Part shown: positions 25,940 to 47,456 of the stretch, one piece after another | Position numbering within the stretch: position 1 is the stretch's first letter | Layout: each line of letters begins with the position of its first letter | Source of the DNA: Mesoflavibacter sp. | GTDB taxonomy: Bacteria; Pseudomonadota; Alphaproteobacteria; UBA8366; Aestuariispiraceae | Length of the DNA: 64,000 bases | Reading direction: 5' to 3' | NCBI GenBank assembly: GCA_017792345.1 | Contig: CP051228.1 | Span: forward strand, 2,618,501-2,682,500 | The notes under the pieces: model-generated | What the model saw: only the letters and a program-made list of their open reading frames with translations | Told to the model about the DNA's origin: nothing | The model's database searches: none | Program-made: the position numbers and the translations under genes

Positions 25940-26998
25940 TCAGACGGACAGGTCCAGTTCTGCGACGGGTTCCGCCTTGTCGAACAGCGTTTTAGCGTCC
26001 GTGACCCCATCCAAATGCAGCGCGCCCGCTTCCAGACGCATGCCTGGATCGGCCGGGTGGTCGGCAATCTTGGAAAAGCCATTTGATTCGATTGCGGTTG
26101 TGAGGCCCGCTTCAAGATACAGGAAGGCCTCCTGGCGATTCCCGAGGGTGCCCTGCACCCCATTTCCGTAGACGATCTTCAGACCAAGCGACCGGGCGTG
26201 CTCCAGAAGGGCAAGGTTCTCACGCAGGCCGAGATGCTTGCACAGTTTCAGCTTCACATAGTCCATGCCGAGCTTCGCCGCGCGGTCGATATCGTCCCGG
26301 GTCCAAATCGATTCGTCCAGCATCAAGGGCACGCGGGCCACATCGCGCAAGGCCAGCATCCGGGTATCCGCTTCCGGCGCATAGGGCTGTTCCATCAACT
26401 CGATCGGGAAGTCGCCTGCTGCTTTGGCGAAGGTAAGGGCATCGGCTTCGGACATCTGCTGGTTGGCATCGACCCGGATCAGGGCGTCCTCCGGCAGAAC
26501 GGCGCTGACCGCTTCGACCCGGCGCAGGTCGTTCTGGACATCGCCGCCGATTTTCATCTTCAGCACGGTGTAGCCGTCATCCGACAGCCGGTGCGCGCGG
26601 GCGGCCGCGTCTTTTGGTTCCGTGCCGCCGCACAGGGCCACGCAGGGAATGGAGGACCCGACGGAAAATCCCAAAATCCTCTCGTCGCCCAGTTCGATGG
26701 CATCCGCCGCCGCCGCCAACCCGCTCATTGCCATCGGCGCACTCTCCCGTCTGCTGTTCAGGCAATCGGAGAGATTGAGACCGGCTGACGACGCCAAATC
26801 TTCAAAGGTCGCCCGGACGCTGGCGCCGGTCTCGAAGCTGTAGCCCGGCAAGGGGGTGATTTCGCCATGTCCCACACCGTTCCGTCCTTCCGCCCGGACA
26901 ATGAAGGTATCGAAGGTCGATACCGGGCCAAAGGCGAGCCAGTAGGGTTCTTTCAGCGGCAGGGGAAGATGGCGGATTTCGAAATGGATATTGGTCAT
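25940..26998 (-). CDS. Enolase-superfamily enzyme (muconate-lactonizing/dipeptide-epimerase-like)
   Basis: A 352-residue enolase-superfamily protein. The KMK motif is at 147-149, metal-ligand candidates are D177, E203 and D228 (in DANQQ, MEQP and LDES), and a C-terminal lysine lies in KLCKHLG near 251-254. This layout matches the MLE subgroup, which includes o-succinylbenzoate synthase, N-succinylamino-acid racemase and Ala-Glu epimerase. It ends a co-transcribed set with ATP-grasp, DUF4910, carrier-protein and adenylation genes, which suggests it epimerises or dehydrates an amino-acid-like building block. The substrate is not deducible. Confidence 0.82.
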   Translation of the reverse strand: MTNIHFEIRHLPLPLKEPYWLAFGPVSTFDTFIVRAEGRNGVGHGEITPLPGYSFETGASVRATFEDLASSAGLNLSDCLNSRRESAPMAMSGLAAAADAIELGDERILGFSVGSSIPCVALCGGTEPKDAAARAHRLSDDGYTVLKMKIGGDVQNDLRRVEAVSAVLPEDALIRVDANQQMSEADALTFAKAAGDFPIELMEQPYAPEADTRMLALRDVARVPLMLDESIWTRDDIDRAAKLGMDYVKLKLCKHLGLRENLALLEHARSLGLKIVYGNGVQGTLGNRQEAFLYLEAGLTTAIESNGFSKIADHPADPGMRLEAGALHLDGVTDAKTLFDKAEPVAELDLSV

Positions 26999-28863
26999 CG
27001 CAATCCGATCTCCAATTCAACGGCATCGGCCCCGCGCCGCCCGGCCTCTTCCGGCCCGAAAACACAGTCCCGCAGGAAGGCCGCCCGCGCGTCGGCCTTG
27101 GCGTGCCATTCCGCCAGGATAGCGGCGTCGGGGCGGTTGGCGATCTCGACGACCTTGTCGTGCCAATCCGGTTCGGCCAGATCCACCAGAAAGACGGATT
27201 TTTCCATCCGCTCCCGGATCTCCGGGATCAGCGGCGCGCCCGGATCGGCCAGGTAAATGATCGGCTTTCCGGTTCCGAAGGCCCAGCCGATGGTGCTCAA
27301 CGGGCTTTCCATGAGGATCAGATCCACACCGCCCCGGAAGAATCGGAAGTCGCCGGTCTTGATTGTTTGCACCGGCGCCGGCGCCCGCTCCATATCCCAG
27401 AAGGCATCGCCGTCGATGTAGCGGCGGGTCGAGTAGAGCTTAACCACGCTCCGGCCCCGAATCCTCGGCATGACCTTGCGGCACATCGCATTCTGCAGTT
27501 CGTAGAGGTCGCAATCCCGGGGGGCGTAGCTGAGCTTCCGGAAATTGTTCTGGCTGGCCCGAGCCAGATAGACGACGATCCGTTCCCGCGGGCGGGGCTT
27601 GAACTTGAACCGGGCCAATAGGCGTTGCATCCAGCGCAGCGGCACGCGGCGCGTCTGCTCGGCCAGACCGATCGTGTGGAAATGAATCTGCGCGGTGCGC
27701 GGTTCCTCCAGGAAAAAATCGGACGCGTTCTGCGCGCAGGCCAGATAGGCGGTGCCGTGCACCGGCTCGGCCCAAATGCGAATGGGTTCGTGATAGCGCG
27801 ACAGGCCGGCGGAAACCCCGTGTTCGACCAGGATCGTCGGGATCCCGGCGTCTTCGGCGGCGGCGGCCTGCATGCAACCCGCCAGCGATCCGATCGTATT
27901 GGTTATGATCGCCGCCGCGCCGTCTTGCGCATCGCCGCGCCGCATCTCGTCGACGCTGGCAAGCGCCGCATCCCGCGCGGATTGCCAGTACCGAGAGGCG
28001 TCCTGCAGGCGTTCGGCGGCGATGCCGGCCGGGATAGCCGGGTCGATTGTCAGGTCATGGTCGGCAAAGGCCTGTTTCAGGGCCTCCGACAGGGCCGACG
28101 CATCCGGCAGCCCCTCTTGCGGATCGCCTGCGACCGGTGCCTGCGGCCGGGGCAGGCGGGCAAGGGCGATGCCGCGATCCAGTAACGGCGGCAGCATTTC
28201 CCGGATGGTATCGTTGTCCCTTCCGACAAAGACGGTTGCCTTTGCATTGGACGGTCCGATGCGGGACGCCTTAAGAAACCTCAATTGTCGGGACAGGCGC
28301 TGGGCGCGCGAGATATCGGCGAGCGAGATGATACGGTCGCTTACCGTGCCACGGTCGAAATCAGCTTCCAGGACGGAGCGGTCGAAATCCATTCCGTCCA
28401 GCAACCGGCATTCCAGCCCTCCGGCAATGTTCCTGAAGACGGTATCGAAGGCACCGATGCCGAAATGGCCGCCACCCCCGCCGGTCAGGCCCGGAACACC
28501 GATAATGACTGTTTGTCCGCCAGAATGTGTGAAAGCCTCGACAATCGCCCGCTTGTAACAGAGCAGCCCGAGGAAATAGGCAAGCTGCTGTCCCACGAAA
28601 GGGACCAGTGCCGGCGTCGCCAAACGCTCGGCCACCGTCCGAAGGGCCGGTTCGACCGCCAGAACGGCCGCCCGGCAAGCCAAACCGATGGCATCCGACG
28701 ATTTCGCCGAAATCGCCGCATCAGCCCACTCGACCGGCTCGCCGGACCGTTCCAGACTTTCGACCACCACCGGCGACGTGCTGTACCAGCGGATCGGGCC
28801 GTCGATATGCTGGCGGGCTTCCTCGACGTGAGAAAGCGATTCCACCAGAACATGTGTCGTCAT
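26995..28863 (-). CDS. Large protein of unknown family, possibly GT-B-like
   Basis: A 622-residue soluble protein I cannot place. Features seen: a glycine-rich loop GLTGGGGGHFGIG near residues 125-137; an acidic and histidine stretch ILVEHGVSAGLSRYHEP near 347-363, as in surface-glycan transferases where a conserved EHG precedes a donor site; and GWAFGTGKPIIYLAD near 537, similar to the GKP-I stretch of GT-B donor domains. It overlaps the enolase-superfamily gene by 4 bases and follows the ATP-grasp gene after 9 bases. A glycosyl- or glycerophospho-transferase role is a guess. Confidence 0.5.
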   Translation of the reverse strand: MTTHVLVESLSHVEEARQHIDGPIRWYSTSPVVVESLERSGEPVEWADAAISAKSSDAIGLACRAAVLAVEPALRTVAERLATPALVPFVGQQLAYFLGLLCYKRAIVEAFTHSGGQTVIIGVPGLTGGGGGHFGIGAFDTVFRNIAGGLECRLLDGMDFDRSVLEADFDRGTVSDRIISLADISRAQRLSRQLRFLKASRIGPSNAKATVFVGRDNDTIREMLPPLLDRGIALARLPRPQAPVAGDPQEGLPDASALSEALKQAFADHDLTIDPAIPAGIAAERLQDASRYWQSARDAALASVDEMRRGDAQDGAAAIITNTIGSLAGCMQAAAAEDAGIPTILVEHGVSAGLSRYHEPIRIWAEPVHGTAYLACAQNASDFFLEEPRTAQIHFHTIGLAEQTRRVPLRWMQRLLARFKFKPRPRERIVVYLARASQNNFRKLSYAPRDCDLYELQNAMCRKVMPRIRGRSVVKLYSTRRYIDGDAFWDMERAPAPVQTIKTGDFRFFRGGVDLILMESPLSTIGWAFGTGKPIIYLADPGAPLIPEIRERMEKSVFLVDLAEPDWHDKVVEIANRPDAAILAEWHAKADARAAFLRDCVFGPEEAGRRGADAVELEIGLR

Positions 28864-28872
28864 CGACGGGGC

Positions 28873-29961
28873 TTACCCTTCCAGCGCGGCGATACGATCG
28901 GCGCGTTCGATGGTCAGCGGCAAGTCGACACCGCGCAGGAACACCCAGCCCGGATCGAAGTCGTAGACATCGCGCGGCATCGGCGCGTCGGCATCCTGGG
29001 CCAGTTTCACATACAGTTCCAACTGGCTGTACTTGCCGACCCGATCAAACTGGGGAGAGGTCATCGGGAAACGCCCGATATTGATCTCGGTGACATAGGG
29101 CGTCCCATCGGCATCGCATTTGAGATCCGCCTGATACAGGCCGTGAGGCTTTGTCCCAAAGGCCGAGCAGACCGCCCGCACGGCTTCGACGGTTGCGTCC
29201 ACCGGTTCGCGCTCCGCCACGGTCTGGCTGGTCTTCGGGGTAGAACCCATCATCGAAAGGGATACGTCCTCGGTGTAGTACTCCAGGCGTTCATAGACCT
29301 TGCCGACGCATAGTTCGCCGTTCTGGAACAGGACGGAGACGCAGAAGTCGCGGCCGGACAGGAACGGCGCAACCACGAAATCCTGGGGCGTCATGCCGCG
29401 CAGTTCGCACCACAGATCCATCCATTTCTGACCCTGTTCGATGGTATGCAACCAGGTGGCACCCTGACTGCCCGCGCCTTGGCGGAGACGGATCCAGTAG
29501 CGGTCGCCTTCTGCGAGGTTCAGTCCGGCGACCGCGTCCGCCAAACCTTCACGGGATTCGACCGGCAGGTTCGGAACTGTCCGGCAGCCTTGATCCTTCA
29601 GGAGGCGGTGGAAGTCGTACTTGTCCTGGACGGCATCGACCTGCGCGGGCAGCGGCAGCAGGTGGTGGCATTTGATCCGGTCGAGATGCCGCGCGAAAAC
29701 CGCCGCTTCGAAATCGCTGTTCGCGATCAGCACGTCGATCTTGTGCTTTTCGATCAGTTCCTCGTGTTTCGCGAAATAGGCGGCTTCGTTCTTTGCCTTC
29801 GGAACGATGTAAAGATGCTCCAGATCCGACTTGGCGATTTCATAGGGGTTGAAATGCGTGCCGACGATCGTGTGTTCATCGGCCGACGGCAGCAGGCGCA
29901 GACTGTTCACCAGGTTCAAGCTGCCCGAACCGCCCATGGACGTAATCAGGATATTCGCCAT
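28873..29961 (-). CDS. ATP-grasp ligase-like protein
   Basis: A 362-residue ATP-grasp protein with a pre-ATP-grasp Rossmann domain (MANILITSMGGSGSLNLVNSL, resembling carbamoyl-phosphate synthase-like proteins) and a catalytic part with VDAVQDKYDFHRLLK, the glycine-rich RQGAGSQGATWL and YVTEINIGRF with metal-ligand Glu/Asn. Such enzymes activate a carboxylate as acyl phosphate and join it to an amine or thiol. It abuts the DUF4910 gene exactly and sits in the acyl-activation cassette, so amide formation on a sugar or amino-acid substituent is plausible. Confidence 0.82.
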   Translation of the reverse strand: MANILITSMGGSGSLNLVNSLRLLPSADEHTIVGTHFNPYEIAKSDLEHLYIVPKAKNEAAYFAKHEELIEKHKIDVLIANSDFEAAVFARHLDRIKCHHLLPLPAQVDAVQDKYDFHRLLKDQGCRTVPNLPVESREGLADAVAGLNLAEGDRYWIRLRQGAGSQGATWLHTIEQGQKWMDLWCELRGMTPQDFVVAPFLSGRDFCVSVLFQNGELCVGKVYERLEYYTEDVSLSMMGSTPKTSQTVAEREPVDATVEAVRAVCSAFGTKPHGLYQADLKCDADGTPYVTEINIGRFPMTSPQFDRVGKYSQLELYVKLAQDADAPMPRDVYDFDPGWVFLRGVDLPLTIERADRIAALEG

Positions 29962-31281
29962 TTATCGGTCTCCTCCTTCGACGCGGCTGAATAGGCCGCG
30001 TGATACACATTGTTCCGCTATGTCGTAAAGCAGTGGCAAGGGCATGCCGCTGCGTTCCGCGATGTCGATCAGGTCGCGCCGGCCGTCGCATTGATTGCAC
30101 AGCCACAGGGTCGCATGGGCGCGTTGCCTGTGATCCATGTTCGCCCGCTTGCCGCCTGTGGTTGGGTAGAGCCCGCGCTTACCCAGATTGGGTTCGCCGA
30201 AGGGCGCGTCATTGCGATAGCGATGGTTCTGATCCAGCGTCCGGCAGATTGCCTCCATCGCGTTCAGCGAGGCGTTCAGCGCCGAGAAATCGATCAAATC
30301 CTTGTTGTCCAAGGATGTATGGTATTCGTCGTATTGCCCGTACCGGCCGCGAATGTACGACCCAACCGGCAGATCGAAACCGGGGGAGCAGTACTGCCGC
30401 TCGTCGCTTCCGGTCGGATGAAAATCGCGAACTTCGAAAGGTTCGTCCAACTGCGCCAGGGCATGGCGTGCCGCGCGGTCCGCCAGGGTATCGGCCCGTT
30501 GCGACAACTGGTAGGTCGGGACGGTCGGCAGCCCGACGCAGGTTACGACATAACCGGCGGCGACCGACTTCTTCAGGTGATCGCCACGTTGGGAAAGATA
30601 GGTGATGGCACCGATGGTTTCCGGTGCGAAGACAAACCGGTAGGTGAAGTTGCGCTCCGGCCATTGCGCGATACGGCGCGCCAGAAAGGCGGAAACCAGC
30701 GGGCCGGAAAGCTCGTTATTCGCCATCGACGGGTGGCAGGTATAGGTGGAGATCAGCACCTCGCGGTCGGACTTCCCCGGAAGGACTGCTTCTGAGAATG
30801 TCAGAGACCCGTCAATGAAATCCGTGTCGATCACCACATCATAGTCGCCGTCCGGAAGCGCATCGCGCTGGTTCTGACTCAGACAGAACCCCCAGTTTTC
30901 GCGGTAGTAGCTGGTGACATAGGGAATGGCGTCCGGCATGCCCGGCAGGCTGTAAAGCCGCTCGTCCAGCTCCGCGCGGCTGAGCCTGCCGCGGAAAGGC
31001 GCGGCATAGTTCACGACATGGAGTGTGTTCTTTCGGGCATCCAGAACCCGGTTACCGTCCGGCCCGACCACATAGGCATCCCGGAATACCCATTCCTTTG
31101 GCACGGTCCAATCGAAAGCCTGTGTGCCGGACGGTACTTCGGTGCGGTCGAGGGGAATCAGCTCCGACAGGATATCGTGGGTTTCCCGCACGCCCTCTCC
31201 GGTGATCGAACGCATGATCGGCCAAAGCCGGTCGAAATAGGCTTCCAATTCTTGCCGTTCGTCCATTCGGTCAAACTCCAT
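29962..31281 (-). CDS. DUF4910 aminopeptidase-like protein
   Basis: A 439-residue DUF4910 protein. Signature blocks are TYTCHPSMANNELSGPLVSAFLARRI near residues 179-204 and GSDERQYCSPGFDLPVGSYIRG near 294-315, together giving a zinc-peptidase-like metal site of the M28 type. The last 70 residues look like a winged helix. The family is poorly characterised and is often found in surface-polysaccharide loci. It overlaps the formyltransferase by 11 bases and abuts the ATP-grasp gene. It may hydrolyse or transfer an aminoacyl group; this is inference from fold and context. Confidence 0.85.
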   Translation of the reverse strand: MEFDRMDERQELEAYFDRLWPIMRSITGEGVRETHDILSELIPLDRTEVPSGTQAFDWTVPKEWVFRDAYVVGPDGNRVLDARKNTLHVVNYAAPFRGRLSRAELDERLYSLPGMPDAIPYVTSYYRENWGFCLSQNQRDALPDGDYDVVIDTDFIDGSLTFSEAVLPGKSDREVLISTYTCHPSMANNELSGPLVSAFLARRIAQWPERNFTYRFVFAPETIGAITYLSQRGDHLKKSVAAGYVVTCVGLPTVPTYQLSQRADTLADRAARHALAQLDEPFEVRDFHPTGSDERQYCSPGFDLPVGSYIRGRYGQYDEYHTSLDNKDLIDFSALNASLNAMEAICRTLDQNHRYRNDAPFGEPNLGKRGLYPTTGGKRANMDHRQRAHATLWLCNQCDGRRDLIDIAERSGMPLPLLYDIAEQCVSRGLFSRVEGGDR

Positions 31282-32170
31282 CCCGTCCTGGCAGGATCGT
31301 TCCCGGATCGTACAATCCGGGAGCCGTACACGCCTTGCCGTCGCGTTTCAATTGCGTCAGGCGCACCGCACCCTCGCCACAAGCCACTGTCAGGCCATCG
31401 GATTCCGCGGACAGCACTTCACCCGGCTTTCCCGTGGCGTCAATGGGCTCGGCGCGCAGAACCAGGATCGAACCGTCGGCATGGGTCAGATGCGCCGTGT
31501 AGGTCGGTGAAGAAAGCGGCGCGTAGTTTCCGGCCCGAATGAAGTCGACGACTTGGCGCGGGCTCCAGCGCCAGTCGATCCGCCCGTCCAGCGCGTCCTT
31601 GTGCCGATACAGATGCCGCAGTGTCAGGTCCTGTTTCCGCCGGGGCAGCGGATTGCCGGCGGCGAGAGTTTCGACGACCTGCAGCATCAAATCCGTTCCG
31701 AGCCGGAAAGACCGATCGAACAGCGACAGGCCGGTTTCTGTCGGCCCAATATCGTACCAGGTCTCAGCGACGACATCCCCGGTGTCGACCCCGGGTTCCA
31801 GATAATGGATTGTCGATGCGAACCGGCTCTCACCGTTTCGAATCCCCCACTGAGTCACATGCCGTCCGGCATAAGCGGGCAAGGGGCCGTTATGCAGATT
31901 GAGAGCCTGGCCCTTGTAGGCATCGAGTACCTCTGCCGGGACCAGTCGCGCGCAATTGACGGTCAGAAGCCAGTCGTAAGTCGTCTTCAGGGCGGTGCCG
32001 TCGCTTAACCCGGTATCGGGATGCAGGACGGCGCCGGACTTGCCGGCCAGACTTACGACGCGCGGCTGATCGTACTGGGCAGTGAACCACGCGGCGAGGT
32101 GACCGGCCTCGCTCAACGCCGCCGCGACCCGTTGAGCCGGGCGGTCTTCACCGGCAAGTGCGATCCGCAT
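31271..32170 (-). CDS. Formyltransferase (Fmt-like)
   Basis: A 299-residue N10-formyltetrahydrofolate-dependent transferase. The catalytic triad is visible as N91 and H93 in NLHNGPLP and D129 in GVDTGD. The C-terminal part, GRIDWRWSPRQVVDFIRAGNYAPL, matches the second domain of sugar and peptide N-formyltransferases rather than initiator-tRNA enzymes. With carrier-protein and adenylation genes next door, the formyl acceptor is probably an amino sugar or a carrier-bound aminoacyl group. Confidence 0.88.
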   Translation of the reverse strand: MRIALAGEDRPAQRVAAALSEAGHLAAWFTAQYDQPRVVSLAGKSGAVLHPDTGLSDGTALKTTYDWLLTVNCARLVPAEVLDAYKGQALNLHNGPLPAYAGRHVTQWGIRNGESRFASTIHYLEPGVDTGDVVAETWYDIGPTETGLSLFDRSFRLGTDLMLQVVETLAAGNPLPRRKQDLTLRHLYRHKDALDGRIDWRWSPRQVVDFIRAGNYAPLSSPTYTAHLTHADGSILVLRAEPIDATGKPGEVLSAESDGLTVACGEGAVRLTQLKRDGKACTAPGLYDPGTILPGRDGV

Positions 32171-32180
32171 CGTGACGTTC

Positions 32181-32435
32181 TCAGGCCGCCTTCAAACGCT
32201 CGACTTCGATGCAGAGGCCGTCAACGGAGACCATCCGCTCTTCGTCCAGATCGGAAATGTCGATGGGAATTCCGATCGCGTCTTCCAGGGATCCGATGAA
32301 ATCGAGATAACCAAACGAATCCAAAACCCCGCTCTCAAGCAGGTTCGCCTTTCCGTCGACATCGACCGGGGTGCTGCCCATGCCGCGCAATGTGTCGTCC
32401 AAAACTTTTCGAATCGTGATTTCGATATCGTTCAT
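32181..32435 (-). CDS. Free-standing acyl/peptidyl carrier protein
   Basis: An 84-residue acidic carrier protein. The 4'-phosphopantetheine attachment serine is S40 in ESGVLDSFGYLDFI, which fits the (L/V)DS signature; the helical pattern and length are typical. It lies 48 bases downstream of the adenylation enzyme and 10 bases before the formyltransferase. It is not part of a fatty-acid cluster, so it should be loaded by the neighbouring adenylation enzyme. A phosphopantetheinyl transferase gene is not in the window. Confidence 0.9.
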   Translation of the reverse strand: MNDIEITIRKVLDDTLRGMGSTPVDVDGKANLLESGVLDSFGYLDFIGSLEDAIGIPIDISDLDEERMVSVDGLCIEVERLKAA

Positions 32436-32483: not shown

Positions 32484-33938
32484 TTACTCCGACTGCATCC
32501 GGGACAACAAGGCCCCGGCGTCGATTTTGTCGTTCGCATTGCGCGGCAGTCGGTCAAGGACGCGGATATCCTGGGGTATCGCATAGGCGGGAAGGGTGCC
32601 GGTCATGCCGTTCCGCAAGGCTTCGACATTTCCGTCGGCGCTTTCCACGAAACCGACCAGCCGGCCGTCATGAAAGACGACACAGGCCGCGATGGCCCCG
32701 GCGTCGCGCAGGGCGGCCTCGACGGCACTCAGTTCCAATCGATAGCCGTTGATCTTGATCTGTCGGTCTATCCGAGAGGTGAAGTAGATATCCGGGCCGC
32801 GCCGCGCGACCCAATCCCCCGTCCGGTAGGCGGCCAGGGTTTGCCCGGCAATTTGCCTGGACACGAAACGGTCGGCTGTCAGGGCGGAATCCTGCCAGTA
32901 TCCCCGCGCCACCTGCGGCCCAGCGATAACAATTTCGCCCTCGTCGCTGTCCGGCCCGTCTTCCAGAAGGATATGCATGCCCGGGATCGGGTCGCCGATG
33001 GCCACATTCTCTCGGCAATGGTCCCGATAGGTATCGGCATCCAGGCGCAGCAGGGTCATCGACACCGTCGCTTCGGTCGGGCCGTAGGTGTTGTAGACCG
33101 TCAGATCCGGGCGCGCTGCGAAGATCGCATCCAGATGCTCCCGCAACAGCGGTTCCCCGCAGAAGGTCATCAGGCGCAGGCTGGACAATGTCTCGCCCGT
33201 CATCTTGCCGCCGCGCCGCATCAGGTCGACGACGCTGGGGACGGAATTCCAGATGGTGAGACCCAGCTTCCGAATTGCGCTTGCTGGCACTAGCCGGTCC
33301 CGCCGATCGTTCAGCGGAACGAGTGTCGCACCGGAACACAGCGCGCCATAGACATCCAGAACGCTGAGGTCGAAACCGAGATTGGGATGCTGGGACCATC
33401 GGTCTTGCGGCCCTGCCGCGATCTCCGACCGCGCCCAATCGGTGTAATGCGTCAGTGCTCCGCGCCCGACCATCACCCCTTTCGGCTCGCCGGTCGATCC
33501 GGAGGTGAACATGACATAGGCTAGGTCATGCGCTGCGGCCGGCTCAGCGAGCCTCTCTTGCGGAAGACCTTCGGACGGATCGATGACCGGCACGCCGGGG
33601 GGATCGATATCCGAGGCGGCGCCGACAATCACAGCAGGCGCGAACCGATGCAATTGCCGCCGCTGCAAGTCGGCGGGGTGATCCAGGTTCACCGGGGAGT
33701 AATAGCCGCCCGCATGCAGCGCCGCGAACATCGCGGCATAGGCCTCGGCATTGCGCGGCAGTCGAACCAGAACCCGGCGTTCCCGATCCGCCGGGACGGC
33801 GGCTGCAATGGCAGCGGCCAAACGGCGGACGAGATCGGCCAGTTCGGCATAGCTCGTGACTCGGGCCCCATCCTCGACGGCAGGGTGATCGGGATGCCGG
33901 TTTGCCGCTTCGAACAGCAGGTCTACAGGATCTTTCAC
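32484..33938 (-). CDS. DltA/NRPS-like amino-acid adenylation enzyme
   Basis: A stand-alone ANL-superfamily enzyme of 484 residues that should activate an acid as its adenylate and load it on a carrier protein. Core motifs: FTSGSTGEPKGV (A3) at 144-155, FDLSVLD (A4) at 189-195, whose Asp fits alpha-amino recognition as in DltA and NRPS A domains, YGPTE (A5) at 285-289, YRTGD and RQIKINGYRLEL (A7/A8), and NANDKID (A10) with the catalytic lysine near the end. The start is a GTG at 33938 overlapping the AAC(3)-like stop (GTGA); the longer open frame upstream is inside that gene. Confidence 0.9.
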   Translation of the reverse strand: MKDPVDLLFEAANRHPDHPAVEDGARVTSYAELADLVRRLAAAIAAAVPADRERRVLVRLPRNAEAYAAMFAALHAGGYYSPVNLDHPADLQRRQLHRFAPAVIVGAASDIDPPGVPVIDPSEGLPQERLAEPAAAHDLAYVMFTSGSTGEPKGVMVGRGALTHYTDWARSEIAAGPQDRWSQHPNLGFDLSVLDVYGALCSGATLVPLNDRRDRLVPASAIRKLGLTIWNSVPSVVDLMRRGGKMTGETLSSLRLMTFCGEPLLREHLDAIFAARPDLTVYNTYGPTEATVSMTLLRLDADTYRDHCRENVAIGDPIPGMHILLEDGPDSDEGEIVIAGPQVARGYWQDSALTADRFVSRQIAGQTLAAYRTGDWVARRGPDIYFTSRIDRQIKINGYRLELSAVEAALRDAGAIAACVVFHDGRLVGFVESADGNVEALRNGMTGTLPAYAIPQDIRVLDRLPRNANDKIDAGALLSRMQSE

Positions 33939-34711
33939 GGCGTCGCTTCCTGTCGGGTCAACGCATAGGGGTCTTGGTGCAACAAGCTGCGCACGGTCTC
34001 GTCGACCGCCGCCAATGGGGCGCGAAGGCTGTCGCGGGACGCATCGATCGGGGCCGGGACACAATCCGGATGGACTTTCAGGGCGGCTTCCGCGCGGCTC
34101 AGATCGTTTTTCACGCGGCTGTCCCTGGCACGACCATAGTACCGGCAGTGGACGTCAGTGACGGTTCCGGACCGAAGAATGCGCCGCGGCACGTCGATCC
34201 AACTCCGGTAAGGCACGCCGACCATGGCTTCGACATGGTGCATATAGGTGGCGCCTTCCTGCGCCGTGCATCCCAGCAGGAGAAGATGAAAACCCTCCCC
34301 CAGCATCCAATCGAAGGATGCACCGGGGCCGAGGGAAAGCAGGGGATTGCAGTCCAACAAGCCCGGCGCCTTCGGTCCGATGGCGCAATGACCATGCATC
34401 GGACAGTCCGTCCGGACCGCATCGGGACGCTGTCTGGCATATTCCGACAGGGCGCCCATGCCGTGCGACGGAGTGGTCGCCGCATCGTAGAGAGCCTCTG
34501 AAGTGAGCGGCAGGGTGTAGGTCGGAAAAATCAGGGTCCCGCCGGGGCCGACAGCATCCCGAAGGGCCTGATAAACCGTTTCAACCCCGCCCGGGATGCG
34601 GCCGAAGCTGAGCAGCCTGGAATGGACCGCCAGATCCATGCCGGGCCGCAGACCGAGCGCGTCGAGATTGGCCTTCAACGCGGCCAGATTTTGGTCCGGT
34701 GAGGGTCTCAC
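33935..34711 (-). CDS. AAC(3)-family N-acyltransferase
   Basis: A 258-residue Antibiotic_NAT-family protein. The opening LGLRPGMDLAVHSRLLSFGRIPGGVETVYQAL and GTLIFPTYT match aminoglycoside 3-N-acetyltransferases. The usual HPxxS catalytic-site pattern is changed: the stretch after R100 reads CPMHGHCAIG, placing Cys103 where the family has His, with His106 and His108 nearby. Located between the adenylation enzyme and the class III aminotransferase, it may N-acylate the newly formed sugar amine, possibly from a carrier-bound donor. Drug resistance is unlikely in this context. The start is GTG overlapping the aminotransferase stop. Confidence 0.83.
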   Translation of the reverse strand: MRPSPDQNLAALKANLDALGLRPGMDLAVHSRLLSFGRIPGGVETVYQALRDAVGPGGTLIFPTYTLPLTSEALYDAATTPSHGMGALSEYARQRPDAVRTDCPMHGHCAIGPKAPGLLDCNPLLSLGPGASFDWMLGEGFHLLLLGCTAQEGATYMHHVEAMVGVPYRSWIDVPRRILRSGTVTDVHCRYYGRARDSRVKNDLSRAEAALKVHPDCVPAPIDASRDSLRAPLAAVDETVRSLLHQDPYALTRQEATP

Positions 34712-36018
34712 GGTTTGCGGAATACCGGCTGAACCCGTTCGCCGCGCAGCTTGCCGTCGAGGTCGCCCGACGCAAGTCCGTCGGCAATCGTGGCGAAGGC
34801 GACGTCATAGGCCTCCAGCGTCCGTTCGACGTCCTGCATCGTGTGGGCGAAAGACGGCGCATGCCAGCCGGCCGCCAGAACGCCCCCGGCGATCCCTTCC
34901 TGCTGAAACACGCTTTTCATCAGCATGCCGTCCGCGCCGTCTCCCTTGAACCACATGACATGCCGCGCGGCGTATCCGTCCAGGCCGATATTGCCGCTCA
35001 ATCCATGCGCCGCGATTTGCCGGGACATGCCGTCCATCAGCGCCTGGCCAATGGTGGAGACATGCTCCAGGACAGGTTCCGTCTCAAGCAGCGACAGGAC
35101 GGTCTGCGCCGCCGTGATGCCCAGCAGGTCGCCGCCGAAGGTGAAGGAAAAGAACACGTCGTTGAAGACATCCATGATGTCGGCCCGGCCCAGCACGACC
35201 GAAATCGGGACACCGTTGCCCAGCGCCTTGCCGAAACAGGCGAGGTCCGGCTGAACCCCGAAGGCGCCGTAGGCGCCCTGCAGATGAATGCGGAACCCCG
35301 TCCAGCATTCGTCGAAGATCAGGACGACGCCGTGCTTGTCGGCCAGGGCGCGAACCCCTTCCAGGTACCCCGGCTTGGGGGGGATGATGCCCATCGGTTC
35401 CATGATGATGGCCGCGACCTGGCCCGAATGCTGTTCCAGCAAATTGGAAAGCGCGTCGAGGTCGTTGTATGCGAAGGGCGTTGTCAAATCGCGGACCGCT
35501 TGCGGTACCCCGGCATGGCGCAGCGTCGTCCCGATGAACCAGTCCTGCCAGCCATGGTAGCCGCAGCACAGAATGCGGTCCCGCCCGGTAAAGGCCCGCG
35601 CCGCGCGAACCGCGCCGGCCGTCGCGTCGGAGCCGTTCTTGCCGAAGCGAACACGTTCGGCATAGGGGAACCAATCGATCAAACGTTCGGCCAGGGCCAG
35701 TTCCACCGTGGTAGGCAGGGAAAAGGCGATCCCGTCCTTCAATCGCTTGGTCACCGCCTCCGTCACGGCGGGGTGATTATGGCCCAGCAACAGCGGGCCG
35801 AGCGCCATCGGCCAATCGATAAAGGCATTTCCGTCGGCATCCCAGATCGTTCCGCCGTCCGCCCTTTCGGCGAAGACAGGCGAGACGCCGCGCGGAAACT
35901 GGGTCCAGCCTTTGGAAAAAGTCTGGGTCTGCGAGGGAATGGCGCCTTCCGCCTTTTTCAGGAGCGCGAGGGAAGCATTCAGCGGCGGCGTGCGCCGATT
36001 GTCACCGAGTTTCGTCAT
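34708..36018 (-). CDS. Class III aminotransferase (GSA-aminotransferase-like)
   Basis: A PLP enzyme of 436 residues. GSDATAGAVRAARAFTG, YHGWQDW, the FDE of the PLP-ring contact near 235-237, and the Schiff-base lysine K264 in CFGKALGNGVP are clear. The fold class is that of glutamate-1-semialdehyde aminomutase, but such enzymes also occur with SpsE/SpsF-type genes. Here it is the only aminotransferase in the PseB operon, which lacks a PseC-like enzyme, so amination of a keto-sugar intermediate is the best guess. It overlaps both neighbours by 4 bases. Confidence 0.88.
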   Translation of the reverse strand: MTKLGDNRRTPPLNASLALLKKAEGAIPSQTQTFSKGWTQFPRGVSPVFAERADGGTIWDADGNAFIDWPMALGPLLLGHNHPAVTEAVTKRLKDGIAFSLPTTVELALAERLIDWFPYAERVRFGKNGSDATAGAVRAARAFTGRDRILCCGYHGWQDWFIGTTLRHAGVPQAVRDLTTPFAYNDLDALSNLLEQHSGQVAAIIMEPMGIIPPKPGYLEGVRALADKHGVVLIFDECWTGFRIHLQGAYGAFGVQPDLACFGKALGNGVPISVVLGRADIMDVFNDVFFSFTFGGDLLGITAAQTVLSLLETEPVLEHVSTIGQALMDGMSRQIAAHGLSGNIGLDGYAARHVMWFKGDGADGMLMKSVFQQEGIAGGVLAAGWHAPSFAHTMQDVERTLEAYDVAFATIADGLASGDLDGKLRGERVQPVFRKP

Positions 36019-36800
36019 TTTGAGGGTTCGATCCCGTCCTTCGCGAGCGACTTGAAATAGCCTTCGTCTCGCAGGGTTGACTGGTTTGCCAAAAGATCCG
36101 CCGGTTGCGACTGAAAGGCCGACAGGACCTGCTGCCAACCGGCCGTGGCTGCACCGTCCTTGCCGAGGGTTTCCGCGATACCCCGGGCGAGCCGATAATC
36201 CAATCCATCGTCGACCGTCCAACGCAGTGCCGACAGGTCCGCGGGGGCCGCTAGATTGGCGCTGGAGAGGCGGCTGCCGCCCTCGAACGCGCAGTTCTTC
36301 CACATCCAGGGCACGACATGCTCTCGTTCGGACGATAGCGTGGCTTCCTCATCGGCCGCCATCAGCGTCTCCTTGGTGAAGACGGAGGCATCCAGACCAT
36401 CCGGCCAGGTCTCGGGCTTCACATTGGTCGCGTAGTCGAGTTTCTCACGGCTTCGCAGCGACAACAGCGCGTCCAATACGGCGGGGTCGATGAATGGGCA
36501 ATCGCCGGTCGCGCGTAGGACGATGTCGGCCTGGGTCGCCTCGCAGGCAAGACGGTAGCGCGACAGGACATCCTCCTCCGATCCCCGAACGACCTGATAG
36601 CCGGCATCCGCAACGACGGCGGCGAGCGCGTCATTGGCGGGGCCGTCGCCCGTTGCCAGAGCGACCTGGTCGATACCGGCGGCCCGGCCGATCCGTTCCA
36701 GGATCAGACAGATCATCGGCCGTCCGGCCAATTCGAAGAGAACCTTGCCCGGCAACCGCGTGGAGCCGATCCGGGCCTGGACGATCGCGACCGTCTTCAT
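36015..36800 (-). CDS. SpsF-like cytidylyltransferase
   Basis: A 261-residue nucleotidyltransferase. AIVQARIGSTRLPGKVL is the CTP-binding opening shared with SpsF, KdsB and NeuA proteins; RATGDCPFIDP carries the metal Asp. It probably activates the product of the NeuB-type synthase encoded two genes upstream as a CMP-sugar. It is clearly different from the second cytidylyltransferase at 45.4 kb. Starts and stops overlap by 4 bases on both sides. Confidence 0.88.
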   Translation of the reverse strand: MKTVAIVQARIGSTRLPGKVLFELAGRPMICLILERIGRAAGIDQVALATGDGPANDALAAVVADAGYQVVRGSEEDVLSRYRLACEATQADIVLRATGDCPFIDPAVLDALLSLRSREKLDYATNVKPETWPDGLDASVFTKETLMAADEEATLSSEREHVVPWMWKNCAFEGGSRLSSANLAAPADLSALRWTVDDGLDYRLARGIAETLGKDGAATAGWQQVLSAFQSQPADLLANQSTLRDEGYFKSLAKDGIEPSK

Positions 36801-37471
36801 GCTGATTTCCGTCCGAACAGATCGAATTTCACGGCGTCGCAAAGGGCGGTCAGCAGCCGCCGGTTCGCGCGGAATCCCTGACCGAACCGGGACGAGCCGG
36901 ATTGCCGGGGTAAGACGGTAACCGGGACCGTATCGAAGGCTTCGCCCCGCCGCAGGGCGGCCAGCGCCAGTTCCGTGCCGACGGACCGGCCTGTCCCGAA
37001 ACGTCCGACGTCGCGATACAAGGACACGTCATATCCTTTCAGCCCGCACAGGATGTCGCCGACACCGAAACGGAGCCGCGTGTAGACGTTGAACAGCCAT
37101 TCCCCGAAACGGGCGGCCTCCGGCCGTTGGCCGAGCACGAGACGGACATTCCCCGACGCCATGGCCGCGATCACCGCCTTGAGCCCGGCGAGTTCGAACT
37201 GGCCGTCAGCGTCATAGGTCACGACGCGGCGCAGGCCGAGCCGGCCTGCCGCTTCAAACCCCGCCTCCAGCGCGCCCTCATAGCCGCGATTGGGCGACAG
37301 GCGGATGACTGTGGCCCCGGCGCCTTCCGCCAGTTCGGCAGTCCCGTCCGTCGACCCGTCATCCACCACAAGCGGCAATCCGCATTGGGAGACGTTGCGC
37401 ACGACCTCCGCAATCGTTTCCGCTTCGTTGAAGGCAGGCATCAGAATGGCGGTGTCGCCGGGCCCGGTCAT
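36797..37471 (-). CDS. Family 2 glycosyltransferase
   Basis: A 224-residue GT-A enzyme. ILMPAFNEAETIAEVV, VVDDGSTDGT and TYDADGQF give the nucleotide-sugar binding site and the DxD-like metal site. It has no membrane segments, and its short length resembles DPM1-like enzymes. It is coupled to the SpsF-like gene and separated by one base from the synthase gene. It probably transfers one residue of the glycan made by this operon. Confidence 0.85.
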   Translation of the reverse strand: MTGPGDTAILMPAFNEAETIAEVVRNVSQCGLPLVVDDGSTDGTAELAEGAGATVIRLSPNRGYEGALEAGFEAAGRLGLRRVVTYDADGQFELAGLKAVIAAMASGNVRLVLGQRPEAARFGEWLFNVYTRLRFGVGDILCGLKGYDVSLYRDVGRFGTGRSVGTELALAALRRGEAFDTVPVTVLPRQSGSSRFGQGFRANRRLLTALCDAVKFDLFGRKSA

Positions 37472-37472
37472 G

Positions 37473-38555
37473 TCAGCGCAGATCTTCCATCGTCACGATG
37501 TCGCCCTCGTCGATGTCACGCGCCAGGGCTTTGCCGATCAGGTCGGGCATCCGATAGGGCGGCAGGCCGTTCACCGGGCAGGGGCGCAGCGGTATCAGGT
37601 CCGCTTCCGTCAGTGTCGCGCCGGCCGAAAGCGCGCGGGTCGTCCGGATCGCCCGCCGTTGCAGCACCACGGTTTCCTTTTCATTGTCCATGACCCGCTT
37701 CTCGGCCGGGCCGAGGGCCGCTTCCAACTCACGCGTGCGGTCCACCATGTCGCGCCAGGTCGTCGGATCCATCGAGAATTTATGGTCGGGGCCTTCGCGG
37801 TCGATACTGTCGGTAAAATGCTTCTCAACCGCGCGTGCGCCCAGCGCGACGGCGCCCAGAACCGTGGCATGGCCCGGCGTGTGATCGGACAGGCCCAGCA
37901 CAACATCCGGGAAGGCAGCGGCATAGGTCTTGAGCACGTTCAGGGCGATATGATGAAAGTTCTCGAGTGACGCCGTGTAGTTGGTATTGCACTGCATGAC
38001 GCACAACTGATCGGTATGGGCACGGGCGACCGAAACGGCGGCCTCGACCTCGTCCATATTCGCGGCGCCGGTCGCGATGAAGAAGGGTTTGTTGTCCTTC
38101 GCCAGTTCGGCAATAGAGGCATGCCAGGTGATGTCGCCCGACCCCAGCTTCCAGGCGGCGACGTACTTCGACAATTCCTTCAACATCGCCATATCGTAAG
38201 GCGCGGTGAAATAGTCGATCCCCGCTTCGTCGCAGGCCGCCTTCAATTCCTGGGTCCATTGCATCGGCAAAGAGGCCGCGTCGTAGACATCAAAGACGCT
38301 CTTCTTCCAGGCCGATTGATGGGATTGCTGACCGCCCAACGCGCGGAAGCCGTAGTCGGACACGATGGTTGCGGCCTGGAAATTCTGGAACTTCGCGGCA
38401 TTCGCACCGGCTTCGGCACAAAGATGGATCAGATCCTTGGCGCGGGACAGGTCCCCGTCGTGGTTGGCCGCGATGTCCGCGATGAAGTATGTGGGATGGT
38501 CGTCGCCGACTTTGAAACGGCCGGTATCCAAGGTGACCCGTTCAGTCTCGCTCAT
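37473..38555 (-). CDS. NeuB-family nonulosonic acid synthase (first)
   Basis: A 360-residue PEP-dependent sugar-acid synthase. FIADIAANHDGDLSRAKDLI is the family opening, then AKFQNF, GSGDITW, a metal-site histidine region QCNTNYTAS, SDHTPG and EKHFTD; a C-terminal SAF domain (LIPLRPCPVNGL onward) is present. The long insertion SHQSAWKKSVFDVYD sets it apart from the shorter LegI-like paralogue at 57.4 kb. It should condense a six-carbon sugar with PEP. The start at 38555 overlaps the RmlD-like stop (ATGA). Confidence 0.9.
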   Translation of the reverse strand: MSETERVTLDTGRFKVGDDHPTYFIADIAANHDGDLSRAKDLIHLCAEAGANAAKFQNFQAATIVSDYGFRALGGQQSHQSAWKKSVFDVYDAASLPMQWTQELKAACDEAGIDYFTAPYDMAMLKELSKYVAAWKLGSGDITWHASIAELAKDNKPFFIATGAANMDEVEAAVSVARAHTDQLCVMQCNTNYTASLENFHHIALNVLKTYAAAFPDVVLGLSDHTPGHATVLGAVALGARAVEKHFTDSIDREGPDHKFSMDPTTWRDMVDRTRELEAALGPAEKRVMDNEKETVVLQRRAIRTTRALSAGATLTEADLIPLRPCPVNGLPPYRMPDLIGKALARDIDEGDIVTMEDLR

Positions 38556-39415
38556 CTTGCTTCCCCTTGCTCTTCCGCCGCATGGGCGTCGATTTCCTGT
38601 GCCAGCGTCGGCAGGTCCAACCCGGCGGCGGTTTCCAGTCTCGCCACATCCATCCGCATGTCCTTGGGACGCGGGGCCCGGCCGGGCAGGTCGGCCGATA
38701 CCCCTTCCGTGGCATTCGTCAGCGGCAGGTTCAATGCCGCCGCCAGGCGGCGCGCAAACCAGGCTTTGCTGGCGCCGTCCCGACTGCCGAGATTGTATGT
38801 TCCGCGAATGCCGTCGGCGACCAGATTTCGCGTGATGCCGGCCAAGGTCTCCATGCGCAGCGGCGAGAACAAACTGTCGGTGAACAGCGTCATCGCGCGG
38901 CCTTCGCGGGCACCCTGGGTCAGCCAATCCGACAGGCTGATGCGCCCAGCGGTGCGGGACCGCCCGAAGAAGTTGACGCGAAGTACCAGCGAATTCTGAT
39001 GGGCCGACGCGGCCAGTTCACCGGCCAGTTTCGTGCGCCCGTAGACGTTGATCGGGTCGGTCCGATCTTCTTCATAGGGGCCGGCGCTACCCGGGTAGAC
39101 CTGATCGGTGGACAGGTGAACCAGGCAGGTCCGCGACGGCAGGATTTCGGCCAGGGCGGCGGCAGGACCTCGGTTCAGTGCGTCCGCCCGCTCCGGATCC
39201 CGTTCGCATGCGTCGACATCCGTCAGGGCGACGGCGTTGATCACCGTGTCCGGTTGCTCCGCCTGGATCAAACCCGCCATGGCGTCCTTGTCCAGAACAT
39301 CGACCTGGTGCGGCCCCTTCGTCCGGCCGACAACCATTGCCGGCCCGTCCGCCGCGAAGGCGTCTTGCAGATAGGGGCCCAGCAGGCCGGTCCCGCCCAG
39401 GATCAGGGTCTTCAT
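38552..39415 (-). CDS. RmlD-like NAD(P)-dependent sugar reductase
   Basis: A 287-residue short-chain dehydrogenase. LILGGTGLLGPYLQ is the nucleotide-binding motif, and STDQVY followed by INVYGRTKLAGE gives the Ser and Tyr-x3-Lys catalytic residues as in dTDP-4-dehydrorhamnose reductase. In this context it probably reduces a 4-keto sugar made by PseB or a later intermediate. The start shares one base with the methyltransferase stop. Confidence 0.86.
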   Translation of the reverse strand: MKTLILGGTGLLGPYLQDAFAADGPAMVVGRTKGPHQVDVLDKDAMAGLIQAEQPDTVINAVALTDVDACERDPERADALNRGPAAALAEILPSRTCLVHLSTDQVYPGSAGPYEEDRTDPINVYGRTKLAGELAASAHQNSLVLRVNFFGRSRTAGRISLSDWLTQGAREGRAMTLFTDSLFSPLRMETLAGITRNLVADGIRGTYNLGSRDGASKAWFARRLAAALNLPLTNATEGVSADLPGRAPRPKDMRMDVARLETAAGLDLPTLAQEIDAHAAEEQGEAR

Positions 39416-46083: not shown

Positions 46084-46698
46084 TCAAAGCTTCCGAAAGG
46101 CTTCCAGCAGGCGAAGCCCCGCGTCGCCGCTTTTCTCCGGATGGAACTGCACCCCCAGAACGGACTCCCGGCGCACGGCGACCGGTACCTCCTGCCCGTT
46201 GTAGTCCAGCCAGGCGGCGACAAAATCTGGATCGGCATAAGGCGCGAATGAATGCACGAAGTAGACATAGTCCTCTGCATCCAAGGTGCCCAGAATCGGG
46301 TCGGCTGCATTTACGCGGATCCGTCGCCACCCGACATTTGGAATTCGGTCGGATCGCTGAGGATCGTTCCCGCGCGGCAACAGGGCCACGCGGCCGGGAA
46401 TGACGTCCAACCCTTGATGCGTCTCGAACTCCTCACCCAGGCTGAGCAGGAGCTGGCATCCGACACAAATCCCGAGCAAGGGCGTACCCCGTGCGATCGC
46501 GTCCTTGAGCGGCCCGACAAGCCCCGCGGCACGCAAGCCCTCCATGGCATCGCCGAAGGCACCGACACCTGGAAAGACGATCTTGTCGGCGGTTGCCAGA
46601 TCCGCAGGATCGCTGCTGATCTTCGGTGCCCCGCCGACATGCAGCAATGCCTGTTTCAGGCTGAACAGGTTGCCGCGTCCATAGTCGACAACGATCAT
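46084..46698 (-). CDS. hisH: HisH-like glutamine amidotransferase subunit (glycan paralogue)
   Basis: A 204-residue class I amidotransferase. The triad is Cys78 in GICVGCQ, His186 and Glu188 in QFHPEKS. It releases ammonia from glutamine. In histidine biosynthesis HisH serves HisF; paralogue pairs in glycan loci (Pseudomonas HisH2/HisF2) supply ammonia to a WbpG-type amidotransferase. No other his genes are present here, and such an amidotransferase gene lies at 53.2 kb. It overlaps HisF by 4 bases. Confidence 0.9.
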   Translation of the reverse strand: MIVVDYGRGNLFSLKQALLHVGGAPKISSDPADLATADKIVFPGVGAFGDAMEGLRAAGLVGPLKDAIARGTPLLGICVGCQLLLSLGEEFETHQGLDVIPGRVALLPRGNDPQRSDRIPNVGWRRIRVNAADPILGTLDAEDYVYFVHSFAPYADPDFVAAWLDYNGQEVPVAVRRESVLGVQFHPEKSGDAGLRLLEAFRKL

Positions 46699-47456
46699 GA
46701 CAGACGCACCGGAACGCCGGAATCGTGCAGGGACGATTTCAATTCGGAAACCGTTGCCAGTTTGTAATGGAACATGCTGGCGCAGGCGACGGCATCGACA
46801 TTTCCATTCAAGAAGGCAGCGGAGATATGTTCCGCTTTTCCGGCGCCGCCGCAGGCGATTACCGGTACTTCCACCAATTCGCGGACGCGGGTGATAAGGT
46901 CCATATCGAACCCTTTCTTCGTGCCCTCCATATCGACGGATGTGAGGATGATCTCCCCGGCCCCGAGCGAAACGGCTTCCTGGACCCAGGCGAGCACGTC
47001 CTTGCCGGTGGTTTCCCGGCCGTTGTCGCAAAGCGCTTCCCATTGTCCCGGCGCGTGCCGCTTTGCCTCAATGGACAGGACCACGCATTGACTGCCGAAG
47101 GCGGCCGCGGTTTCCCGAATGAATTCGGGCCGCTTCACGGCAGCCGTATTGACCGCCACCTTGTCCGCCCCGCATCTCAACGCCTGTTTGAAATCATCGA
47201 CGGTTCGTATTCCGCCGCCGATCGTAATCGGGACGAACACGTCCCGGGCCGTTTCTTCGATAACCCCGAAGATGCTGCTGCGGCCGTACAGGCTGGCGAC
47301 GGTGTCCATGTACAGGATTTCGTCGATTCCGTCCTTGTAGTAGGCGCGTGCAAGGTCTCCTGGCTTTCCGACGACGCGAAGGCCTTCAAGGTGAATGCCC
47401 TTGATGACATTCGGGCCTTTGATGTCGAGGCGAGAGATCAAACGAATGGGATGCAT
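46695..47456 (-). CDS. hisF: HisF-like cyclase subunit (glycan paralogue)
   Basis: A 253-residue beta/alpha barrel. The opening RLISRLDIKGPNVIKGIHLEGLRVVG is typical of the WbuY/HisF2 group rather than housekeeping HisF (IPCLDV). Catalytic Asp11 is kept, but the second acid, Asp130 in classic HisF (SIDAKR), is Glu130 here (SIEAKR). That change suggests the cyclase activity is lost and that the barrel only channels ammonia. It lies with HisH in the PtmE/LegF-like operon. Confidence 0.88.
   Translation of the reverse strand: MHPIRLISRLDIKGPNVIKGIHLEGLRVVGKPGDLARAYYKDGIDEILYMDTVASLYGRSSIFGVIEETARDVFVPITIGGGIRTVDDFKQALRCGADKVAVNTAAVKRPEFIRETAAAFGSQCVVLSIEAKRHAPGQWEALCDNGRETTGKDVLAWVQEAVSLGAGEIILTSVDMEGTKKGFDMDLITRVRELVEVPVIACGGAGKAEHISAAFLNGNVDAVACASMFHYKLATVSELKSSLHDSGVPVRLS

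Follow-up and report, generated by a model that had tools for sequence, protein, structure and literature searches.

In Campylobacter jejuni, formation of the dimethylglyceroyl amide on pseudaminic acid depends on Cj1295, which has been described as an aminopeptidase-like polysaccharide protein (PMC3068675), and of two strains without the dimethylglyceroyl group one carries a broken fkbH gene (the cj1302 pseudogene) and the other has no cj1301 (PMC7099621). A second described relative, CA_C2195 of Clostridium acetobutylicum (PDB 3k9t), is encoded in a cluster with a carrier protein, a NeuB-SAF protein, an ATP-grasp protein (CA_C2189) and a cytidylyl-type nucleotidyltransferase (PMC4000134). 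We compare these systems with five genes at positions 25940 to 32170 of a 64,000-nucleotide stretch of contig CP051228.1 (Mesoflavibacter sp., assembly GCA_017792345.1). This whole stretch is hereafter the window; coordinates are window positions, and all five genes lie on the minus strand. In order of transcription they encode a formyltransferase (FT), a DUF4910 protein, an ATP-grasp ligase, a 622-aa protein of an unnamed family and an enolase-superfamily enzyme.

Like the Cj1295 system, in which loss of Cj1295 removes the acyl amide (PMC3068675), the window has an aminopeptidase-like protein in a nonulosonate cluster. DUF4910 occurs there with NeuB, a carrier protein and an AAC(3)-like (aminoglycoside N3-acetyltransferase-like) acyltransferase, the combination by which we recognise a Cj1295-type acylation system. 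We take Cj1295 to belong to the DUF2172/DUF4910 family, and the C. jejuni locus presumably has AAC(3)-like and carrier genes as well. Unlike that system, which attaches a glyceroyl unit, the window has an adenylation (A) domain that would supply an amino acid, together with an FT; no match to an FkbH-type glyceryl loader was found in the window's 20 kb, where the A domain is present instead. CA_C2195 has the same three domains as the window's DUF4910 protein, yet it keeps the zinc ligand Asp195 and belongs to the Asp-Asn clade described below, and its cluster has no A domain or FT in Table 2 of the source (PMC4000134). An FT, an A domain and a carrier in one pathway also recall the F-A-T loading module of LgrA, although the window's proteins are separate, the FT is closer to Fmt and the product is proposed to go on a sugar. 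The A domain and carrier match the DltA and DltC models of the D-alanylation system, albeit below the DltA and DltC cut-offs and with an AAC(3)-like acyltransferase; the A-domain stretches FCGE and NTYGPTEATV presumably resemble DltA. The Shewanella flagellin-modification operon sfmABCDE likewise brings NeuB-domain and ATP-grasp genes together, but is described, in the available part of the source, without DUF4910, A domain or FT (PMC3765264). N-formyl-L-alanyl has been reported as part of the V. anguillarum O2 polysaccharide (PMC10059132). In the open-licence literature searched, no A-domain or FT cassette is described in a nonulosonate cluster; the same literature yielded nothing on aminoglycoside N3-acetyltransferases in flagellin glycosylation, only general O-polysaccharide papers on formylalanyl, and, on alanyl groups and acyl carrier proteins in O-antigen clusters, papers whose titles point to other subjects.

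Our reading, to which we give a probability of roughly one half, is that the segment belongs to the decorating end of a nonulosonic-acid operon, built from interchangeable modules, which would add an (N-formyl)aminoacyl group to the sugar. As the earlier note described, five genes follow the carrier gene at tight spacing: a 10-base gap separates carrier and FT, FT and DUF4910 overlap by 11 bases, DUF4910 and ATP-grasp abut (0 bases), a 9-base gap precedes the 622-aa gene, and this overlaps the enolase gene by 4 bases. Each of the five has homologues elsewhere, so none is a chance open reading frame (ORF). They nevertheless come from at least three separately assorting sets: an acyl cassette (AAC(3), A domain, carrier, FT), a backbone that includes DUF4910 and the 622-aa protein, and a pair formed by the enolase and a flavoprotein.

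These boundaries emerge from loci of other genomes (given L numbers here). Three of them, L096, L097 and L101, come from the window's taxonomic order. L096 and L097 keep methyltransferase, RmlD, NeuB, GT2, cytidylyltransferase, HemL, DUF4910 and 622-aa protein; in L101 the conserved portion begins with GT2 and ends with the 622-aa protein, and its DUF4910 is distant (28%). In all three a methyltransferase occupies the place of the window's AAC(3)-A-carrier-FT genes, so that these loci combine DUF4910 with the 622-aa protein and lack the cassette. Between these two genes stands a GNAT gene in L096 and L097 and the ATP-grasp gene in the window; an Asn-synthase-like gene comes immediately after the 622-aa gene in L097 and is separated from it by a short ORF in L101 and by the enolase and flavoprotein genes in the window. 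The earlier note had read the five genes as one set for peptide-like chemistry and had named independent assortment as the observation that would speak against it. Neighbourhood analysis shows that the genes partly assort apart: because DUF4910 and the 622-aa protein occur without the cassette, the ATP-grasp matches occur without DUF4910, and the enolase goes with the flavoprotein, we reject a single peptide-editing set. What survives of that reading is an aminoacyl substituent (A domain plus carrier) in a sugar operon.

The acyl cassette recurs in part elsewhere. AAC(3) and the A domain occur together in two Magnetococcales loci, L155 (45% and 47% identical, respectively) and L114 (41% and 46%); in a third genome of the same class, a short contig (L154) shows only the A domain (49%). 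Across the 42 other genomes of the order that were searched, an A domain at E 1e-50 or better was found in two, at 37-39% identity. The specificity positions read DLLNTCTVSK in the window, L154 and L155, and DLMNSCTVSK, with two differences, in L114; in the window Asp235 and Lys517 of these positions are both present. The A domain scores just below the curated cut-off of AA-adenyl-dom (TIGR01733; 309.6 against 317.4 bits), and its best PDB match is LgrA. In L114, DUF4910 is followed by the A domain, the carrier and what remains of the N-terminal part of an FT-like gene (E 4e-5 across 36 residues when that stretch alone was searched); AAC(3) comes later. Family scans of the window's FT give Formyl_trans_N at 1.6e-17 and Formyl_trans_C at 4.9e-14, and its best match in the plasmid collection (35%) corresponds to the N-terminal domain (residues 49-303) of a 1548-residue ORF that has an A domain as well, a fusion of the two in one protein. 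For the 371 matching records of that search 10 rows were listed, 5 of them of this same MupA/Atu3671 kind. The fusion and the A-carrier-FT-like order of L114 suggest that the substituent is probably an N-formylated aminoacyl group, as the earlier note had supposed, and on the same two grounds we propose that the FT formylates the carrier-bound amino acid in the manner of LgrA. On Mesorhizobium plasmids (L182, L183, L184), a polysaccharide-export cluster contains an A domain (40-42% identical), a carrier and, after these, a GNAT gene.

The DUF4910 protein was compared across a sample in which 28 of 385 genomes of the class and 30 of 398 of the phylum matched. Mainly the stronger loci were fetched (for the class 27 of 29 places other than the window's own, for the phylum 20 of 30 new ones), leaving out nine lower-scoring places and one on a 3-kb contig. 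With the rows of L096, L097 and L101 from the 622-aa search, 52 rows were aligned and one fragment was dropped, giving 51. The window protein is a firm family member (DUF4910, PF16254, 1.8e-93 and 312.4 bits against a cut-off of 26.6; DUF2172 1.6e-33; HTH_47 4e-20). Of the CA_C2195 zinc ligands His189, Asp195 and His324, however, it keeps only the histidines, as His183 and His321; the Asp195 equivalent is Asn189, followed by Glu190. This position is Asn in 37 of the 51 loci, always followed by Glu (37/37), and Asp in 14; by alignment, Asn-Glu marks a clade and not exclusion from the family. Aligned to the description in PMC4000134, the places of the M28 catalytic Asp and general-base Glu are Ser185 and Pro220. 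The earlier description of the protein as zinc aminopeptidase-like thus holds for the fold, which is M28-like (3k9t), and not for the metal site; since the metal-ligand Asp is replaced by Asn, peptidase chemistry is unlikely, and we reject ordinary peptidase activity. A zinc amidase that strips the sugar of an acetyl or another acyl substituent before re-acylation, which Hitchen et al. adopted as their working hypothesis for Cj1295, would be compatible with the rest of our reading. It draws on the M28-like fold (PMC4000134), on both retained histidines and on the need for Cj1295 in forming the dimethylglyceroyl group (PMC3068675). The Asn in most loci, the window's among them, and a Pro at the general-base position in 44 of 46 rows make it rather unlikely, although the Glu beside the Asn could still serve catalysis.

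The clade is tied to the acyltransferase. An AAC(3) gene is found no more than 10 kb from DUF4910 at 19 of the 37 Asn loci, against 1 of the 14 Asp loci (Fisher's test, 0.004, with kinship not removed), the one Asp-type locus being L090, which reads Asp-Glu. An AMP ligase or A domain is found in 9 of the 20 AAC(3) loci, FkbH in 6 and neither in 5; among the 31 loci without AAC(3), one has an AMP ligase and none FkbH. Seventeen plasmid loci, hand-picked from 42 plasmid records, follow the same division: the 8-10 kb fetched include AAC(3) for 4 of the 5 copies with Asn-Glu and for none of the 12 with Asp-Asn. In addition, annotated plasmids show AAC(3) with DUF4910 inside the pse clusters of Tritonibacter and Agrobacterium. 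In a 67-row DUF4910 tree, all 24 AAC(3)-linked rows fall in one 43-row clade (support 99/97) and none among the other 24 rows. The AAC(3) state changes 13 times on this tree against 19.9 in shuffles, of which 0 of 500 were as low. One Asp-Asn row without AAC(3), L077, is nested inside the clade, and in a quick tree 3k9t groups with the Asp-Asn rows. In L083 (10823-13390), L078, L112, L117 and L120, the AAC(3) and FkbH profiles match one and the same ORF, overlapping or adjoining DUF4910, which looks like a fusion of transferase and loader. A second, Asp-Asn type of operon occurs in rhizobia, a Rhodobacterales plasmid and Streptomyces (L180, L187, L189, L193, L195); it has SDR-DUF4910, rfbC, a methyltransferase, a nucleotidyltransferase, a PIG-L deacetylase and mostly a HemL-like aminotransferase, and no AAC(3).

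The next two proteins of the segment probably belong to the sugar and its transfer. To judge from its matches, the ATP-grasp protein is only a distant relative of the PRK12767 type: its Pfam match lies below cut-off (8.7e-4; ATP-grasp_4 at 19.4 against 27 bits), as does the clearer NCBIfam match (2.7e-15, 56 against 218 bits). A profile seeded with it matches six loci (L104, L140, L142, L143, L145, L146), of which all six have the 622-aa family and NeuB, five have HemL and none has DUF4910, and also the operon's other ATP-grasp protein (L147). In a Tritonibacter pse cluster an ATP-grasp gene follows DUF4910, AAC(3) and FlmD. From this company we assign the protein probably to the sugar/transferase set and not to the aminoacyl cassette. 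The 622-aa protein returned no family in the family scan and no relative in a scan of genome contigs; the plasmid searches with it and with the flavoprotein gave no match. An alignment of 18 family members has invariant His348, Gly349, Lys475, Tyr477, Ser523 and Pro534, and a remote homologue (96.6% hhalign match), a 530-aa protein at L083:7279-8871, is encoded between a cytidylyltransferase and DUF4910. The family comprises large unnamed proteins of nonulosonate clusters, with chance-level matches only when its profile was compared with Pfam and PDB and none when compared by hhalign with a protein annotated as a polysialyltransferase. The protein is probably the glycosyl- or phosphoglycosyltransferase of the operon's sugar, and it may be of GT-B type; the single-sequence structure model (mean pLDDT, the predicted local distance difference test, 35.7) is unusable.

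The enolase-superfamily enzyme (MR_MLE_C, 3e-31) seems, when aligned to 3jva and 2p88, to have the KxK motif, three metal ligands and second catalytic Lys, whose roles we take to be the usual ones. What we take to be the ammonium-binding motif of dipeptide epimerases, a DxD pair near the C-terminus, is replaced: E-S-N stands in the window and E-I-N in L170, against D-L-D in 3jva. Dipeptide epimerisation, which the earlier note had suggested, is rejected on this ground. The nearest relative among 372 genomes of the class (about 44-45% identical) is in L170, a 5.1-kb contig on which it adjoins a 63% identical flavoprotein homologue and has an ATP-grasp and a GT4 gene, and no A domain, nearby. 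The set implied by the earlier note, ending at 25940, accordingly stops too soon, as the next gene encodes this conserved partner. The flavoprotein has a Cys motif that presumably resembles those of iron-sulfur flavoproteins. Among 289 genomes of the class in a separate sample, none but the source of the window had it, and it is known here from two places only. Judged by these occurrences, the pair is a rare, separate module of unassigned role.

Two further proposals turn on this enzyme. Peptide editing of the butirosin kind, in which the ATP-grasp protein adds an amino acid, the enolase epimerises the dipeptide and DUF4910 trims it, would suit the contiguous genes, their 0-11 base spacing and the fold classes; we hold it to be very improbable in view of the ATP-grasp matches, whose loci hold the 622-aa family, NeuB and in many cases HemL but no A domain, of an enolase that lacks the DxD pair and pairs with a flavoprotein instead, and of the altered DUF4910 metal site. 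An N-acylamino-acid racemase setting the stereochemistry of the formyl-amino acid is hardly more probable: the catalytic residues are present and E-S-N aligns with E-L-T of 2p88, the best PDB match, which we take to be an N-succinylamino acid racemase, but the L170 homologue keeps company with the flavoprotein, ATP-grasp and GT4 genes and, on that short contig, no A domain.

By its gene content, the segment sits in a nonulosonic-acid (sialic-acid-like) surface-sugar operon (Table 1). GT2 and RmlD genes also lie upstream in the same direction, and further upstream is a second nonulosonate set of NeuC, NeuB, a CBS-nucleotidyltransferase, a second cytidylyltransferase and a WbuX/HisH/HisF-WbuZ trio, which probably forms an acetamidino group for the operon's second nonulosonic acid. 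A flagellin-linked operon was considered and rejected, the sole flagellin match being about 1.9 Mb away, which leaves no positional link. Scans for consensus promoters gave 2 sites (2.6 in shuffles) and those for terminators 12 (11.6 in shuffles), the level of chance.

Table 1. Features of the window discussed in the text, with the basis of each assignment.
Feature	Position	Strand	Basis
FMN_red-type flavoprotein (P0008), 530 aa, C-x2-C-x2-C...C motif; outside the five-gene segment	24166..25758	minus	Pfam
Enolase-superfamily enzyme (P0003), 352 aa, muconate-lactonizing subgroup	25940..26998	minus	MR_MLE_C; residue alignment
622-aa protein of unnamed family (P0001)	26995..28863	minus	18-member alignment
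ATP-grasp ligase (P0002), 362 aa, PRK12767-like	28873..29961	minus	weak Pfam and NCBIfam matches
DUF4910/DUF2172/HTH_47 protein (P0005), 439 aa, Asn-Glu clade	29962..31281	minus	Pfam, alignment, tree
Formyltransferase (P0004), 299 aa, Fmt/ArnA-like, N and C domains	31271..32170	minus	Formyl_trans_N, Formyl_trans_C
Carrier protein, 84 aa, phosphopantetheine-type site DSFGYLDF	32181..32435	minus	PP-binding 2.7e-4; DltC, AmcB models
Stand-alone A domain; ORF start over-long, true start probably near 33940	32484..34064	minus	AA-adenyl-dom 2.8e-92; DltA models
AAC(3)-like (Antibiotic_NAT) acyltransferase, 258 aa	33935..34711	minus	Pfam
HemL-like class-III aminotransferase; ORF over-long, homology from about residue 109	34708..36303	minus	family scans; 70-75% identical homologues in L096, L097, L101
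Cytidylyltransferase, SpsF/CTP_transf_3 type	36015..36842	minus	Pfam; KdsB-type models
NeuB-SAF nonulosonate synthase, homology from about residue 146	37473..38927	minus	family scans
HisH homologue	46084-47043		
HisF/WbuZ homologue	46695-47456		
WbuX homologue	53221-54489		
Second ATP-grasp protein (L147)	55695-56720		match to ATP-grasp profile

We observed the gene content, the module boundaries, the link between AAC(3) and a DUF4910 clade, and the FT-A-domain fusion; every reaction, the amino acid, the amine acceptor and the order of steps we infer. A small alpha-amino acid would be loaded onto the carrier protein by the stand-alone A domain, and its amino group would then be formylated by the FT, so that separate proteins would do the work of the F-A-T loading module in linear gramicidin synthetase. 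Together with DUF4910, the AAC(3)-like enzyme would attach the (N-formyl)aminoacyl group through an amide bond to an amine of a CMP (cytidine monophosphate)-activated sugar. That sugar may be the product of RmlD, NeuB-SAF, the SpsF-type cytidylyltransferase and the HemL-like aminotransferase, the last being the proposed source of the acceptor amine, and would then be transferred by the 622-aa protein. The ATP-grasp protein would act in the sugar/transferase part, and the enolase and flavoprotein may make a separate change whose nature is unassigned. More tentatively, the locus may represent a nonribosomal peptide synthetase loading module that has been split and wired to a nonulosonic-acid pathway, with Asn-Glu DUF4910 and AAC(3) forming a carrier-dependent sugar N-acyltransferase on a disabled aminopeptidase, its acyl unit exchangeable (glyceroyl by FkbH, aminoacyl by an A domain).

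Several observations weigh against the reading of an interchangeable (N-formyl)aminoacyl decoration. The window's complete gene order is absent from every other locus fetched, and AAC(3) was not found with 19 of the 43 clade rows, some of which are on short contigs. The Asp-Asn protein CA_C2195 is itself accompanied by genes for a carrier protein and N-acetyltransferases (PMC4000134, Table 2), so the link between clade and cassette is not strict. The Mesorhizobium A domain and carrier stand with GNAT, and no DUF4910 is among the listed genes. The FT of L114 is a remnant of about 36 aligned residues. In PDB the window's FT scores higher for Fmt, a GDP-perosamine-type formyltransferase and ArnA than for the gramicidin F domain, and in L087 and L092 FT genes adjoin DUF4910 where no A domain was found. 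These last two points favour two decorations in place of one: the FT would formylate a sugar amine directly, like PseJ, WlaRD and ArnA, and the A domain, carrier and AAC(3) would add an unformylated aminoacyl group to another amine. We regard this as unlikely, given that the FT's best plasmid match is a domain fused to an A domain, that the FT gene directly follows the carrier gene in the window, as the FT-like remnant does in L114, and that the L092 FT is only 24% identical to the window's. A single N-formylated aminoacyl group remains our preferred reading.

Surface-sugar clusters of many bacteria contain DUF4910 proteins, for which a reaction has yet to be proven; the only structure solved is from the other clade. 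The split between clades at the metal site, tied as it is to carrier cassettes, yields a testable claim on how carrier-bound acyl groups reach sugar amines. If it is true, it would account for the way in which bacteria change the side group of sialic-acid-like sugars through an exchange of two to four genes, and one transfer machine with an exchangeable acyl unit would give rise to many surface antigens.

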